57,956 bases of DNA from positions 1 through 57,956 of IMG/VR virus record IMGVR_UViG_3300038428_000087. One strand, 5' to 3'. The first letter of the stretch is position 1, and each line of letters opens with the position of its first letter. Shown here in pieces: positions 2,905-57,956 of this stretch. Made by a program: the position numbers and the translations under genes. Below the pieces are notes generated by a model. The model was not told where the DNA came from. It was given only the letters and a program-made list of their open reading frames with translations, and ran no database searches. This stretch comes from a virus.

Positions 2905-4689
2905 ATGCCCTCGAAAAAAGAAGAAACTAACGGTATAACGTCATTTAACGAGAACTCTTCACTTACTAATTTTACCAAAGCGAACCAAACTCCTGAAGAC
3001 GTAAAGAAATTAGTCGATCTCCAGGACCAGCCGTTTACGCCTCAAGGCTTGCCTACGCTGGGTTCAGGCGACTTAATGGGTGTCGGCCCATCCAGCCCAG
3101 GTCATCCTGCTCAAATTAATTACTTCGCAGAGTACGGCACTACCGGCCTGATGTACATACCTCCGTATGTATATGAAGAATGGCTGACTGAGCTCCAATA
3201 CACTCGCGGCGTCCGGATGTACAAAGAGATGTACACGATGGACGCTATTATTTCATCCATCTTTTACGCCGTGGAAATGAGCGTTAGAAGCGTTAATCTT
3301 TGGTGGGAAACCGCCGGAGCATCAGATGAGGACTTAAAAGCACTTCAATTTTACGAAGAGTGTTGGGAAGATATGAGCGTTAATCCACAAGACCTCGTAT
3401 CAGAAATTCTCAGCATGTTTATTTTCGGGTATCATCTCGCGGAGATAGTGTATAAAAAGAGAGAGGGCCCGCATCCTGAAGACAGCACGATAGATTCAAA
3501 TTATGACGATGGCCGCGTTGGGTGGAGAAAGTTTGCTACTAGGGCCCAAGAAACACTACTTAATTGGGACTTTGACGTTAACGGTGGAGTACGAGGCTTT
3601 AGGCAACTTGCGCCCCCGCATTTTATAATCACAGAGATACCGATAGAAAAACTGCTGCTTTTCAGAGTCAAACCGCGTAAATCCAATCCCGAAGGCGTCT
3701 CAATGCTTCGCGGGGCGTATCGGACGTATATGTTCAAAAAACTCGCTGAAGAAATAATGATGACGGGCATTGAGCGTGATTTGGCAGGCGTTCCGATCAT
3801 ACGGGCCCCAGGTGAAATAATAACCGGAGTAGATGCTAATTCTCAGTCTATGATGACCACGCTCACGCGCATCGTCAGGAACCTAAAACGAAACCAGGAC
3901 GAGGGCATTGTACTACCGTCTAACAACTATTCATCAGCAGACGGCGGCGGATTGATGTATGACGTCCAACTTATCGGCCCGCAATCGCAGAGGCAGTTCG
4001 ATATCGTTGGGATTATCCAGATGTTCTCTAAGTGGATAGCCATGACGATGTGTGCTGACTGGTTGATGCTCGGACAGGACGCTATAGGGTCATACGCGTT
4101 AGCGCAGACCAAGAACGATATGTTTGCGATGACGATTTCAACGATTCTCGATTCAATTTGTCAGGTCTTTAACTCATACGCAGTACCTCGCTTAGCGCAG
4201 CTTAATCCAGACGTAAACCCGGAAACGTTACCTAAACTCGTTCACGGCGATGTAAATACCGCACTGATAAGCGATGTCGGGATATTTTTAAACAACGTCG
4301 CGCGGGGCGGAGTTGAGATTCCAAACGACGTGCAATTTAGAAACGCCCTGTGGGATATGGTAGGACTTCCAAAAGAACCTGAACCTGAAGGCGAAACTGC
4401 TACGCCGGTGGATTCGTTATTACCTGGACAAACAGCCCAGAGATCAAGAGAACGAAACCAGAGGATAAACGAAGAGACGCCGTTCAGAGGAAAGCCACCA
4501 CGGGCGGTAGTTCAAACTCCTGGTCCAGTGAAACGGTCTGCTACAGTCGAAAAAATAACAAAACAACAGCCTAGTGTTTCAGACGTCCATGTAAAGCGGC
4601 CAAGTGAAGACATATCAGTTGCGTATCTACAGGGGACTAAACCAAAAAAGAAGCGAAAGAAAAATGGCAAAGGAACTGCTGGAAGTTAA
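2905..4689 (+). CDS. Portal protein
   Basis: 594 residues. The core (YKEMYTMDAII followed by VRSVNLWW and later FGYHLAEIVYKKREG) matches the Mu gp29/DUF935-like portal superfamily, and the gene lies directly behind terL. It would form the dodecameric vertex ring through which DNA is pumped. The C-terminal 90 residues are low-complexity, rich in Pro, Lys and Arg. They contain a segment at residues 555-576 (QPSVSDVHV ... ISVAYLQ) that strongly resembles residues 50-71 of the capsid candidate. The tail then ends in a basic KPKKKRKK stretch. The portal call is firm from sequence plus position. Confidence 0.85.
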   Translation: MPSKKEETNGITSFNENSSLTNFTKANQTPEDVKKLVDLQDQPFTPQGLPTLGSGDLMGVGPSSPGHPAQINYFAEYGTTGLMYIPPYVYEEWLTELQYTRGVRMYKEMYTMDAIISSIFYAVEMSVRSVNLWWETAGASDEDLKALQFYEECWEDMSVNPQDLVSEILSMFIFGYHLAEIVYKKREGPHPEDSTIDSNYDDGRVGWRKFATRAQETLLNWDFDVNGGVRGFRQLAPPHFIITEIPIEKLLLFRVKPRKSNPEGVSMLRGAYRTYMFKKLAEEIMMTGIERDLAGVPIIRAPGEIITGVDANSQSMMTTLTRIVRNLKRNQDEGIVLPSNNYSSADGGGLMYDVQLIGPQSQRQFDIVGIIQMFSKWIAMTMCADWLMLGQDAIGSYALAQTKNDMFAMTISTILDSICQVFNSYAVPRLAQLNPDVNPETLPKLVHGDVNTALISDVGIFLNNVARGGVEIPNDVQFRNALWDMVGLPKEPEPEGETATPVDSLLPGQTAQRSRERNQRINEETPFRGKPPRAVVQTPGPVKRSATVEKITKQQPSVSDVHVKRPSEDISVAYLQGTKPKKKRKKNGKGTAGS

Positions 4690-6015: not shown

Positions 6016-6621
6016 ATGAAGTGTTCTAAATGCGGTCGAGAAGCTGAAGACGCGAAGTTTAAACAGTGTAGTGCATGCCGCGAGAGTTATCGCAATTATC
6101 GTAAGCAACCCAAATGGATAGAGTACAACAGAAATTACCAACGCGAATGGATACGCACGCATAGAAAAGTACCTCCAGAAGGATGCTGTATCAGATGTGG
6201 CAAGCCGTTAGAATCTAATCTATTCGCAAAATGTGAGCAATGCCTCCAAAGTTCACGAGATTGGTTCTCTTTAAATCCCGACAAGGCTCTGAAATATGCG
6301 CGTAAGTCACGTGAAGCGAATCATGATAGACATCTGAACTATATACATAACTACCGGGCCCGGAAAAAAGGTAATGGCGGCACATTCACCTTTAAAGAGC
6401 TAAACGAGTTATTTGAACAACAAGAAGGATTCTGTTATTATTGCGGTGAATTACTTTATGCATCATTTGACAGAGAGATTCACATAGAGCATAAGATTCC
6501 AATATCTCGCGGAGGTTCTAATGATATCACGAATATTGTACTAAGTTGCGCAAAATGCAATCTTAGTAAAGGCGCAAAGACCGATGTGGAATTTTTAAAA
6601 TTGGTAACAAAGCAAAAATGA
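6016..6621 (+). CDS. HNH endonuclease with N-terminal zinc ribbons
   Basis: 201 residues. Two CxxC...CxxC ribbons occupy about residues 3-21 and 56-75. A C-terminal HNH module follows: FCYYCGE, then IHIEHKIPISRGGSNDITNIV, then CAKCN with a KG tail, the usual zinc-bound HNH layout. It sits between portal-linked and prohead genes, a typical place for a free-standing homing endonuclease, though HNH proteins can also assist terminases. The start overlaps the stop of a 13-codon frame (ATGA), and the stop overlaps the next gene. Confidence 0.85.
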   Translation: MKCSKCGREAEDAKFKQCSACRESYRNYRKQPKWIEYNRNYQREWIRTHRKVPPEGCCIRCGKPLESNLFAKCEQCLQSSRDWFSLNPDKALKYARKSREANHDRHLNYIHNYRARKKGNGGTFTFKELNELFEQQEGFCYYCGELLYASFDREIHIEHKIPISRGGSNDITNIVLSCAKCNLSKGAKTDVEFLKLVTKQK

Positions 6622-7970
6622 AAGAAGAAATCGCTGTTGAAAAGGAATCCAAACCTAAGCAATATTCCCAGGAATACATGGACGCACTTTTAGAAGGCGT
6701 CAGGCAGTATGTACCTCCGCACGTAATGGAAAATCTACACAGGCAAGCGTTACCTCGTGCCGGTGGCAAAGCAAGTGCCAATGCACGCGCAGCTCGAAAT
6801 GCTGCTCAGACCACTGAAGCTAGTCAAGCACAAAATACACAGGCCGAAGTAAACGCAGAGGTAGAGAAACAACCGATACCGGCAGACATAACACCAGTAC
6901 CGTTACCTACGAATGAAAAACCGTTAACACCTCCTGCACCACCGCAACTGCAACCGGAAACGTGTGCAGAGGGCGATGAAGCATGCGAGGCTTCTGGGTC
7001 AGGTCCAGAGCAATCTACACCCGTACAACAAGGTAAAAGTAAAATGGATAAGGAAGAAATAGATAAAGATGCACACGGTAAGCAGGGCGCACCCATAGCT
7101 GATACTAATGCATGGGATGCAGGTGCAGCTCAAAAGCGATTAGTGGCGTGGGCATCAGATAGTGATGGCAATATCAACTTTGGCAAACTCAAGCGAGGCT
7201 ATTTGTGGAGCGCACCGGGAGCAGATAAACTAGGAGATCTTAAATTCCCTGTCGCAGATATCATCAACGGACAGTTTAAGATAAGCGCAGCAGCTTTATC
7301 GGCAGCAGCAGGTCGTATTAACCAAAGTAAAGGAATACCACCCGATGAGCTCGCTTCAATGAAAGCCACGCTTAGAAGCTACTACAAAGACATAGGTGAA
7401 GACGCACCGGATAATATCTCAAAAGCAAGCGATGAGGACTTACATCCGGATTGTCAGAAGGTAGCGGACAACTGCATGAAACTGAAATCCGGCAAAGGCA
7501 TCTCTAAAGCAGATGTTCCGACCTACATAGGCAAACGTCCGATACTTACCTTCGTCGCTGCATCGCCAGGCATCATGGAGTCTATCAGGAAAACCGCTTT
7601 GGCAGGAGCTACAGGCAAGACATTCAACGATGAATACCTGACTCCTTTAGGCCTTACGAGAAACGACGTTGCGATTACCTATCTTGTCCCGAATCTGCTA
7701 AAAGACGAAGGCGGGAAAGTCAGAGAACCAACTGCCGAAGAAATAGAGAAGTGGCAACCCTGGTTCACCGAAGAAATCGAAAAGATTGAAAGCGGTAATA
7801 AGCTGCCAATAATCGCACTCGACCACACGGTGAAAAAAGCGTTAGATAGAGAAGTTGAATTTACACTGCCTCATCCAAACTCACTATATACTCCGCGAAC
7901 AAAGGATGAGCTGCAAAGGAAGAGATATCAGGTATCAAAGGCTCTCGAAGCTAGATACCGAAAAAACTGA
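6618..7970 (+). CDS. Prohead-locus protein with uracil-DNA-glycosylase-like domain
   Basis: 450 residues. The first 130 are low-complexity (Ala, Pro, Gln). Residues about 150-260 form a domain seen beside prohead proteases in other phages (AWDAGAAQKRLVAWAS ... KLKRGYLWSAPGAD ... FPVADIING). Residues about 305-430 resemble family-4/5 uracil-DNA glycosylases: FVAASPG in place of GEAPG, TGKTFNDEYL like the TGRPF loop, an ITYLVPNLL strand, PTAEEIEKWQPWF, and HPNSLY like the HP[AS] motif. Changed motif-A residues make activity uncertain. The frame ends in an A AAA AAC heptamer directly before TGA, and the -1 frame runs into the protease below. Confidence 0.75.
   Translation: MKEEIAVEKESKPKQYSQEYMDALLEGVRQYVPPHVMENLHRQALPRAGGKASANARAARNAAQTTEASQAQNTQAEVNAEVEKQPIPADITPVPLPTNEKPLTPPAPPQLQPETCAEGDEACEASGSGPEQSTPVQQGKSKMDKEEIDKDAHGKQGAPIADTNAWDAGAAQKRLVAWASDSDGNINFGKLKRGYLWSAPGADKLGDLKFPVADIINGQFKISAAALSAAAGRINQSKGIPPDELASMKATLRSYYKDIGEDAPDNISKASDEDLHPDCQKVADNCMKLKSGKGISKADVPTYIGKRPILTFVAASPGIMESIRKTALAGATGKTFNDEYLTPLGLTRNDVAITYLVPNLLKDEGGKVREPTAEEIEKWQPWFTEEIEKIESGNKLPIIALDHTVKKALDREVEFTLPHPNSLYTPRTKDELQRKRYQVSKALEARYRKN
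7961..7967 (+). promoter_or_regulatory. Candidate -1 ribosomal frameshift site (A AAA AAC)
   Basis: In the 0 frame the codons are CGA AAA AAC TGA, so the heptamer has the X XXY YYZ register and abuts a stop. After a -1 slip the next codon is CTG 7967, and that frame stays open for 161 codons to 8452, covering the protease frame. No ATG, GTG or TTG precedes TTG 8093 in it. The alternative is one lost or gained A in the A6 run. Confidence 0.55.
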
Positions 7971-8092: not shown

Positions 8093-8452
8093 TTGAAAGG
8101 GACAGACCATCTAGTGTGGGGTGTTGTCTATGAACCGTGCAACGGACCTGTCTGCAAGACCGATACGCAGGGGGACTTTATACGTCCCGATGAACTGCGA
8201 AAGGTCGCGCAGAATTATCTCGCCAATGCCGGTAGAATAGGACTCCACCATCAGAAAGAACTGAGTCCGTCCGAGGCGACGCCTGTGGAGAGCTTCATCG
8301 CGCCCGTTGATATGGTCGTCGATGGTGAACACATCACGAAAGGCTCCTGGGTGCTGTTCACGAAACTAAACGATGCACTTTGGAAACGCGCACAGAGCGG
8401 AGAACTCGGCGCGTATAGCATCGACGGAACAGGTGTGCGCGTAAAAGCGTAA
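8093..8452 (+). CDS. XkdF-like prohead serine protease
   Basis: 119 residues from TTG 8093, but the same frame is open back to 7952 and probably continues from the upstream gene by -1 frameshift. The sequence has the phage XkdF/prohead-protease features: WGVVYEP, DTQGDFIRPDELRKVAQNYL, the LHH pair with the catalytic-type His, a Ser followed by VESFIAPVDMV, and KGSWVLFTKLNDALW. It would cleave scaffold and capsid proteins during maturation. The downstream scaffold gene and nearby capsid gene support this. There is no convincing Shine-Dalgarno site in front of TTG. Confidence 0.75.
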   Translation: MKGTDHLVWGVVYEPCNGPVCKTDTQGDFIRPDELRKVAQNYLANAGRIGLHHQKELSPSEATPVESFIAPVDMVVDGEHITKGSWVLFTKLNDALWKRAQSGELGAYSIDGTGVRVKA

Positions 8453-8476: not shown

Positions 8477-9472
8477 ATGGTAAACGACAAAGATTATTCA
8501 ACTGGCGTACCTAGCGTCGCTCTCGAAAAAGATACTGAACTTGTCGATACCGAAGTTAATTCCGTTCACCTCGTAACACGCGGGGCGAACCGTAAGAAAC
8601 TTCATTTGGTCAAGTCAGAATTAAAACGCGCACCAGGATCTAATTCTATGGCAGAAACACACGAACCAGCGTTCGCTATCGACGTCCTTAAAAATTATCA
8701 CGAGGAAGGACTGGCGGACAAAATAGAAAAAGGGATTCCTGGGCTACAACCTGAAGCGATGGAAGTAGGAGAGGCCATGGTCACTCTTGCCAAATCTGTT
8801 GCTGAAGAACTCCCCGCAAACTTCTTTGATGAGATCTCGTCTATCGCAGGTTTTCAGAAAGCCAGCACTAAGAAAGCGAAGCCTACTGAGGACGACGATG
8901 ACGATGATGATGACGGTTGCGATGGAGACGACGGAGCTCAGAAATCAAAGGCAACGAAAATGAAAAAGAGTATAGAAAAAACCCTCGAAAAGATCGAGAA
9001 AGAGGAAGACCTTGATCTTCTACCTGAAGATGTGCAGAAGGCCGTCCGTCCGATATGGAAGGCCCTCGTAGAGAAGGACGAGCGCATCGCCAAGATGGAA
9101 GAGCAAAAGCGTGAAGAGGTTTTTCTTGCGAAGGCAGCGCAGTACACCCGTATTGCCAAAGGTGCTGATTTCGTCAATTTGATGAAAGACGCAGCCGATT
9201 ACCTCCCAGAAAAGTCCTTCCAGGCATTTATTCATCTTCTCGACGCTCACGAGGAAATGCTTAGAAAAGGCGACCTGTTCGCAGAGTACGGCAGCTCGCT
9301 CGAAGGCGACGCATCGAACCCACTTGTTAGGTGGGATGCAGAAGCCAAAGCACTGCAGAAATCAGCAGGGATAACGTACGAACAAGCGTACACCGACGTT
9401 GTGCACGCAGACCCAGAAGGGTACAAGGAAGTCCTTAATCACAACCTAGCCGCATCACGAGGTGAGTTCTAA
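8477..9472 (+). CDS. Capsid scaffold-like protein
   Basis: 331 residues. It begins with a segment typical of protease/scaffold partners (VNSVHLVTRGANRKKLHLVKS), followed by predicted helices, an Asp run (8895-8915) and long charged helices. An in-frame ATG at 8648 (MAETHEP) could give a shorter scaffold, as in nested protease/scaffold genes. Between prohead protease and capsid is the classic scaffold position. The stop overlaps the next start (TAATG). No single catalytic motif is visible. Confidence 0.65.
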   Translation: MVNDKDYSTGVPSVALEKDTELVDTEVNSVHLVTRGANRKKLHLVKSELKRAPGSNSMAETHEPAFAIDVLKNYHEEGLADKIEKGIPGLQPEAMEVGEAMVTLAKSVAEELPANFFDEISSIAGFQKASTKKAKPTEDDDDDDDDGCDGDDGAQKSKATKMKKSIEKTLEKIEKEEDLDLLPEDVQKAVRPIWKALVEKDERIAKMEEQKREEVFLAKAAQYTRIAKGADFVNLMKDAADYLPEKSFQAFIHLLDAHEEMLRKGDLFAEYGSSLEGDASNPLVRWDAEAKALQKSAGITYEQAYTDVVHADPEGYKEVLNHNLAASRGEF

Positions 9473-10324: not shown

Positions 10325-11491
10325 ATGGCAACAAATTCTCAAAGAAACTTCGCCTCGATCACGCCGAACTATGGACTCTACGGAGCTGCGAAACGTCTTA
10401 CCAAAGCGGGTCTTATCGAAAGCCCTGCCGAAGCATGGACAATGCCAAGTCACGTTTCGCTCACCAAGAGCCAGCCAAGCGTCTTCGATGTGCACGTTAA
10501 TGTGCCCAATACAATTTTTAGTATTGCGTACATCCAAAGCCAAACCAACTTCAGGGCAGCCGAGATCTTTCCACTCATCCCTGTGATGAAGAAATCTGAC
10601 TACTACGTCAGCTACACGAAAGACTACTGGTTCACGAATGAAGCTAAAGTTCGGCTAGACGGTTCAGAGACAGCAGGAACGGGCTACGGCCTCAACATGA
10701 AAAACGTCTATATGTGCGACGTTTGGGGCCTGCACGTTGACCTAGGCGACATGGTATCAGCTAACGCCGATGCACCGCTTAACATGCAGCGTGATATCTC
10801 CCTGTTCTTGACGCAGAAGCTCCTGCTCGCCAGGGAAATGCAGTTCGTCACCAACTACTTCACGAACGGAGTATGGACAACCACCGAAAACGGCGCAGCT
10901 AACGGCGGCGGCGGCCAGTTTGTGTTCTGGGATGACCAAACTAACAGTACGCCTATCGAAGATATACGAAAGTTCAGACTCAACATGGCGCAACAGACGG
11001 GCTTTGTTCCTAACACCCTCGTAATTGGACCACAAGCCTACGAAGCGCTCATTGTCCACCCAGAAATCCTCGAAAGGATTAAATTCGGTGGAACGCCAGG
11101 TGCGCCCGCAGTTATATCAGAACAGGCTCTTGCTCAGGTATTCAGCATCGACAGAGTGATTGTGCCTATGTGCGTGGTTAACTCCGCCGCAGAAGGTTCA
11201 GCATCGCCAAGCATGGGCTTTGCATACGGCAACGATGCGCTGCTCTGCTACAGCAACCCAACACCCTCGATACTTACTCCATCTGCCGGGTACACGTTCG
11301 GATGGAACGGATACCTCAGCTCCGGTGGGCCGTATCAGGATATAGTCGGTTCTGGCGGTGCAGGTTGGTTCGCTGTCCGGAACTTCCGCATGGAGTGGAG
11401 ACGCGCCATGAGAATGGAAGCAGAGATGGCGATGGGCATGGAAATCATAGCTCAAGACCTCGGATGCTTCCTGAACGGTGTAATTAGTTAA
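10325..11491 (+). CDS. Major capsid protein (HK97-fold candidate)
   Basis: 388 residues. The N-terminal arm contains QPSVFDVHV ... FSIAYIQSQTNFRAAEIFPLIPV, resembling the 'vSvayiq..nFia..vFP.vpV' entry of siphovirus capsids. A long central helix region (MQRDISLFLTQKLLLAREMQF) follows, and a late region (FRMEWRRAMRMEAEMAMG) matches the P-domain and C-terminal part. Position after protease, scaffold and decoration genes is canonical. It would form the icosahedral shell. The shared N-arm motif with the portal C-terminus is unusual. Confidence 0.85.
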   Translation: MATNSQRNFASITPNYGLYGAAKRLTKAGLIESPAEAWTMPSHVSLTKSQPSVFDVHVNVPNTIFSIAYIQSQTNFRAAEIFPLIPVMKKSDYYVSYTKDYWFTNEAKVRLDGSETAGTGYGLNMKNVYMCDVWGLHVDLGDMVSANADAPLNMQRDISLFLTQKLLLAREMQFVTNYFTNGVWTTTENGAANGGGGQFVFWDDQTNSTPIEDIRKFRLNMAQQTGFVPNTLVIGPQAYEALIVHPEILERIKFGGTPGAPAVISEQALAQVFSIDRVIVPMCVVNSAAEGSASPSMGFAYGNDALLCYSNPTPSILTPSAGYTFGWNGYLSSGGPYQDIVGSGGAGWFAVRNFRMEWRRAMRMEAEMAMGMEIIAQDLGCFLNGVIS

Positions 11492-57588: not shown

Positions 57589-57956
57589 CTCAAGTATATT
57601 ACGACCACTCGAACGGCAAAAGATATTTTATGGGGTGCAATCGCGACCCACCACACGCCGATGCAAAGTTACTTTTAACTCGTAAACAACAGGCGGAACT
57701 ACCTAGTTCTTATACTATTATAGATGGCACGCCGGTTGAAGATCAGGGAAATGAAGGTTCATGTACAGGCAACGCAGGCGACAACGCTTCTAAGATCCGA
57801 AGTTATACAGCAACAGGCAACTACTTCAACGGTGCCCGTCAGCAGATATACCAATGCGCCTTAGCGCACGATGGCAACCCACTACAAGATGTCGGTAGTT
57901 CATTAAGTACTATAGCGTGGGTTCTTGAGAACATCGGAGTTGCTGTTGAGTCTGAG
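57585..57956 (+). CDS. Papain-like cysteine protease, 5' part across junction
   Basis: First 124 codons of the protease that continues at position 2. It starts with ATG 57585 overlapping the previous TGA. The opening (TQVYYDHSNGKRYFMGCN) is short and has no signal peptide. PVEDQGNEGSC with the catalytic Cys is near residue 60. See the entry at 2-1036 for the remaining domains. Confidence 0.85.
   Translation, partial: MTQVYYDHSNGKRYFMGCNRDPPHADAKLLLTRKQQAELPSSYTIIDGTPVEDQGNEGSCTGNAGDNASKIRSYTATGNYFNGARQQIYQCALAHDGNPLQDVGSSLSTIAWVLENIGVAVESE
57731..57956. repeat. Right copy of terminal direct repeat
   Basis: Same as 1-226 apart from one base (57857). Its presence shows that the window is longer than the genome by 226 bases. 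Confidence 0.95.

Follow-up and report, generated by a model that had tools for sequence, protein, structure and literature searches.

A possible procapsid recruitment tag, copied from the capsid N-arm onto the portal and, in related phages, onto the head-maturation protease

A long-standing question in phage head assembly is how one portal and a small number of protease molecules enter a shell built from hundreds of capsid subunits. Scaffolds are described as binding the N-terminal arm of the coat protein in SPP1, 80alpha and P22 (PMC6813328, PMC5644958, PMC12005531), and the scaffold hook of P22, placed between the coat protein and the portal, touches the two of them (PMC12005531). Phage T4 uses a 10-residue capsid targeting sequence (CTS) to put proteins into the head, and a targeting role has been proposed for its protease propeptides (PMC9026906). 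A related device is found in the Family 2A encapsulin SrpI, where a disordered segment of the cargo, a cysteine desulfurase, directs it into an HK97-fold shell (PMC8049743).

The phage analysed here differs from each of these systems. In the pairs gp8-gp5 (P22), SP-CP (80alpha) and gp11-gp13 (SPP1), the capsid arm is the scaffold's handle, and it is likewise a segment of the arm that is copied here; the portions of those accounts used here describe no copy of the arm in a portal sequence, whereas our phage has one. The T4 CTS (on IPI-IPIII) resembles the copy in being a short peptide on non-capsid head proteins, which here are the portal and the XkdF-type protease only. However, the CTS is N-terminal and cleaved, and the account of it concerns its interactions with core (scaffold) proteins and does not present it as a copy of the capsid N-arm (PMC9026906), whereas the tag here is a capsid copy carried by portal or protease. 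The SrpI signals LARLANEFFS and AASPYYFLDG are different sequences and are not reported as copies of a shell arm (PMC8049743). A capsid targeting peptide is a known device, but one that copies the arm of the phage's own capsid and is placed on portal and protease seems to be new: our search of open-access papers found no published description of either, in line with the sequence-only reading that began this work, which knew of none.

The window, i.e., the whole stretch of DNA analysed, is an IMG/VR virus record of 57,956 bases. A direct repeat of 226 bases (99.6% identical) occupies both record ends (1-226 and 57731-57956), so the genome is suggested to be nearly complete. The head genes (Table 1) run in the order terminase, portal, two unknown genes, HNH endonuclease, UDG-fold protein, XkdF-type protease, likely scaffold, 279-aa protein and major capsid. 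The Portal_Mu profile scores 93.4 bits on the window portal against a curated cut-off of 23.9, and the mimic lies beyond both this match and that of phrog_113. The scaffold candidate has no Pfam or PHROG match, and its role is inferred from gene order; it has a conserved C-terminal end (...TYEQAYTDVVHADPEGYKEVL) and lacks the mimic. The window's own protease also lacks the mimic, which its counterparts in other phages carry.

Table 1. Portal, protease, scaffold and capsid features of the window
Feature	Positions	Strand	Basis
Portal protein, Mu-type, 594 aa	2905-4689	+	PF06074 Portal_Mu, E=2.3e-26, residues 104-441; phrog_113 portal, E=6e-64, residues 75-529
Variable linker from portal body to mimic, residues 496-552	4390-4560	+	gapped and diverged among relatives; pN/pS 0.45
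Capsid N-arm mimic QPSVSDVHVKRPSEDISVAYLQ, portal residues 555-576	4567-4632	+	13/22 identical to residues 50-71 of own capsid
Lysine-rich end TKPKKKRKKNGKGTAGS, portal residues 578-594	4636-4686	+	Lys/Arg-rich stretch after mimic
XkdF-type head maturation protease	8093-8452	+	PF14550 Peptidase_S78_2, E=6.7e-25; phrog_3017
Scaffold candidate	8477-9472	+	gene position, coiled composition, family; homologues at same position in relatives
Major capsid protein, HK97 fold, 388 aa	10325-11491	+	phrog_1005 major head protein, E=1.2e-62, residues 57-387; AlphaFold model
Copied capsid N-arm segment QPSVFDVHVNVPNTIFSIAYIQ, residues 50-71	10472-10537	+	family hallmark near capsid N-terminus

The copied stretch carries the hallmark by which this family of capsids is recognised. 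In 78 distinct capsid arms it takes the form (M)PQPxxxDVHVN.PLTNISVAYxQ or (M)PQPxINSVHVDAILTNISVAYxQ, and most of these capsids start directly with it. The window capsid, which phrog_1005 matches over most of its length, was modelled with AlphaFold from a 59-sequence alignment (mean pLDDT 69.9); the model shows the HK97 fold and aligns to 3bjq (Z 23.5), HK97 1ohg (Z 17.0) and 6x8m (Z 16.7), the last being the point of likeness to the encapsulin. Residues 1-66 are unordered (pLDDT<50) in this model of a lone subunit. Residue 59 of the model corresponds to HK97 residue 117, and the copied stretch, as modelled, is therefore the N-arm. The sequence-only reading had this stretch leading into the N-arm/E-loop region, and the capsids of relatives, most of which begin at the motif, agree with a place in the N-arm. 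A literature search for N-terminal sequencing data on a related mature capsid returned nothing useful.

The similarity between portal tail and capsid arm is real, and the portal and capsid ORFs are correctly called. The sequence-only reading had counted about 12 identical positions of 22 and described the DNA as well diverged; we find 13, with 39 of 72 nucleotides identical over 24 codons, and the match extends upstream as TKQQPSV in the portal and TKSQPSV in the capsid. When the portal was shuffled 2,000 times, the ungapped local score of 81 was never approached (mean 33.9, sd 4.1, maximum 60), giving a Gumbel-extrapolated p of about 2e-7, so the match withstands the shuffled-sequence control proposed for it. 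In a six-frame scan of the window with the capsid segment, the portal copy scores 65 and the next best ungapped match 26, and when the genome was searched blind with the portal, the only match besides the portal itself was the capsid N-arm (E=2.2e-4). In an all-against-all comparison of the window's ORFs, six other pairs score at least as high as portal and capsid, the top-scoring pair being an effect of the repeated record ends.

The portal loci comprise twelve from an initial search and further ones from later searches. Every window-clade portal with a readable tail carries the motif, at overall portal identities of 62-98%, in the form [ST]xxDVHV..P.[ED][DE][FI]S[VI]AY[LVI][QP]G, with a lysine-rich end behind it; these portals copy the whole arm, SVAYxQ included. 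The mimic is gap-free across the clade and its flanks are full of gaps; pN/pS is 0.27 for the mimic, 0.45 for the linker and 0.19 for the portal body. Where portal and capsid copies share a residue, the codons are identical at 2 of 14 positions in the window and at 2/14 to 9/15 across comparisons. The portal copy was therefore not made recently, which excludes recent gene conversion between the two genes. Since it is conserved, comes at the end of a variable linker and uses codons unlike the capsid's, we regard it as old and under selection rather than a product of recent recombination.

Beyond this clade, the copy is patchily distributed. Four sister-group portals (L054, L056, L230 and L231) have the first half only, QPSAGDVHV[ND]AP, and then lysines, while their nearest sisters (L049-L053, L232 and L233) lack the mimic; portals without the tag include ones 77-83% identical to the L054 portal over the matched part. 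Among cultured phages, the portals of Ottawa, Kovu, Salgado, ValentiniPuff, KPP23, RDJL1, RHph_Y60 and Tedan have no copy. The capsids of Roseobacter RDJL, Pseudomonas KPP23 and Arthrobacter Laroyevirus phages carry the window capsid's N-terminal hallmark (the YuA-like/Mesyanzhinovviridae capsid family, that of phage Lydia, may also be close), but unlike the window's group these phages have no copy on portal or protease, and the same is true of all cultured relatives inspected. The motif is thus not general to the portals of the family. Because close portal relatives and inspected cultured relatives lack it, the mimic is an accessory device that this capsid type does not require, and the idea of a general necessity falls. 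The sequence-only reading had named relatives without the motif as the result that would count against it, and here the outcome is divided: all clade portals keep the motif, but sisters and cultured relatives are without it. A search of genome contigs with the portal alignment returned no relative. Cultured phages searched with the portal tail alone gave mainly capsids and no recognisable portal or protease match; three matches in Salmonella SPFM jumbo phages (E 3-7) were taken as chance.

The copy is not confined to portals. An HMM built from 65 capsid arms and run on 20,230 distinct non-capsid ORFs of related loci matched 71 proteases and 16 portals at E<=0.1 and no other ORF; no scaffold among these ORFs has a copy. 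The mimic-bearing protease is the XkdF-type enzyme (PF14550), whose C-terminus in a large group of freshwater type has the sequence [DEG]P.V.[DSAQ]VH[VI]DTIM.P.KKK. In a 33-sequence alignment, the P, V, H, D, T and I of this copy are as invariant as the active-site-like residues. The copies on proteases correspond to the first half of the motif alone (P...VHVDTI), and their place varies: the C-terminus in L092-type proteases, for L096 and L144 a linker close to the N-terminus, the N-terminus itself in L123 (MSEPSAAAVHVDGTDWAARKKPKK), an internal linker in L228 (SPGATDVHVDVPLGDDSKPTPRKKRK, E=5.9e-4), and in L142 a large ORF upstream of the protease. Copies at the C-terminus, in linkers and at the N-terminus point to a transplanted short motif rather than shared ancestry of one gene. 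No locus among those examined, few of which have both genes complete, carries the copy on both portal and protease. A Lys/Arg-rich stretch, absent from the capsid, follows the mimic in every mimic-bearing portal and in nearly all protease copies.

The copies tend to match the subtype of their own phage's capsid. For example, phages with DVHVNVP capsids have DVHVN.P on the portal, and those with VHVDAI capsids have a protease with VHVDTI. The 27 distinct pairs of capsid and copy have a mean identity of 6.44/11, against 5.85 when permuted (p=7.5e-4, a value inflated by shared ancestry, as most pairs come from one freshwater clade). There are exceptions: L123, L228 and L056 have D where their own capsid has N.

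On balance, we favour the reading in which the portal tail is a decoy of the capsid N-arm and acts as a procapsid recruitment tag. The partner that grips capsid N-arms during assembly would also grip the twelve portal tails, and the portal would be built into the growing shell as though it were a capsid subunit. The tag would thus share its partner with the N-arm, the likeliest candidate being the C-terminus of the scaffold, with the lysine-rich end perhaps helping, and its effect would be recruitment. Since the scaffold grips the coat arm in SPP1, 80alpha and P22, it would also take up a portal on which that arm is copied. The XkdF-type protease, to which the tag is fused in related phages, likewise has to end up inside the procapsid, so one mechanism, a capsid-mimicking recruitment tag, would cover both proteins. 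The earlier suggestion that the portal imitates the arm to bind shell or scaffold is therefore strengthened, because the same capsid N-terminal peptide sits on this protease; it is the best-supported reading, though not as something these phages generally need.

It is unlikely, in our view, that the portal tails instead dock directly on the shell, filling the grooves under the E-loop or P-domain that accept N-arms in the hexons around the portal, where capsid subunits at the portal vertex would lack a neighbour. In the mature capsid of SPP1, N-arms do connect capsid subunits with one another (PMC6813328), and copying of the whole arm by window-clade portals would suit such docking. However, docking alone leaves the protease copy unaccounted for, since the protease is not part of the shell lattice, and the half-motif copies (on the L054 portal and the proteases) leave out SVAYxQ, the more arm-like half. 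Another reading, which we consider rather improbable and which the sequence-only reading had named as a protease or assembly target, is that the shared peptide is a recognition or cleavage site at which capsid N-terminus, the protease's own tail and portal tail are processed and the lysine-rich end is removed. That the copy sits on the protease itself, beside a removable basic tail, would fit, as would the T4 precedent of targeting peptides that are both address and substrate (PMC9026906). Conservation over 11 to 25 residues is nevertheless longer than usual for prohead protease sites, and the scaffold, a usual substrate, has no copy. The protease tail (residues 108-151) was also disordered (pLDDT<50) in an AlphaFold self-docking test, which is weak evidence against cleavage as the model is poor overall.

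Very little probability goes to a timing device, in which the tail competes with capsid N-arms for the scaffold and so slows or restricts growth of the shell around the portal while recruiting nothing. Any high-affinity copy would presumably compete, and the copies are few (12 portals) relative to hundreds of capsid subunits, but such low numbers would make for weak competition, and the protease copy would go unexplained. We give almost no credence to chance similarity or a functionless scar of recent recombination: a sister clade did lose the copy or never had it, but the shuffle result, the conservation and low pN/pS across the window clade, the dissimilar codons and the independent protease copies all speak against it.

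Extending the recruitment-tag reading to the whole group is a more tentative step. The sequences could mean that this lineage addresses portal and protease to the procapsid by a copied capsid N-arm plus a basic tail, a label that would have moved several times from gene to gene and position to position and would evolve with the capsid it imitates. The carriers are a group of uncultured tailed phages, and the address, a peptide of 11 to 25 residues, is apparently readable in the plain sequence of two different proteins. If this is true, it would offer a portable tag with which proteins could be loaded into HK97-fold shells, and an aid in recognising portals and proteases in unannotated phage genomes.

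Several further observations concern the same genes. The scaffold candidate contains an acidic run, DDDDDDDDGCDGDD. Strongly acidic runs occur in window-clade and L071/L072 scaffolds, whose matching portals, where known, end in lysines, and in the L049 type the scaffold run is weaker and the portal has no such tail. A link between lysine-rich portal ends and acidic scaffold runs is suggestive but not clean, because L053 has an acidic run and no portal tail. Near the C-terminus of the first ORF (MuF-type) of L103 and L105, HIQPISVAYIQGALGEANEDK resembles the second half of the capsid arm; this ISVAYIQG match (E about 0.7) is unproven.

In the window-clade capsid, about 46 extra N-terminal residues (10325-10462) precede the arm; this extension has a conserved GLYGAAxRLTKAGxIESPxEAWTMP and is absent from the other family capsids seen here. 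The large terminase is encoded by two ORFs, 1223-2110 (ATPase part) and 2111-2881 (presumed nuclease part), with an in-frame TAA between them. The two parts are likewise separate ORFs in relatives at 49-79% identity, in some of them with a gap, which argues for a conserved split rather than a sequencing error. Inserted amid the head genes is an HNH endonuclease gene (6016-6621; PF01844), and the protein encoded at 6618-7970, also among the head genes, has a uracil-DNA-glycosylase fold (PF03167, E=2.8e-6); a UDG-like domain similar to it is fused to the XkdF protease in L115 and L081. Lastly, the portal genes of L028 (1387-, 942 aa), L054 (8372-, 943 aa), L056 and L231 are interrupted by an insert of about 330-360 aa, which in L028 begins after a conserved NPEG stretch and ends ...GNGFVPTHN before S, and which looks like an intein.
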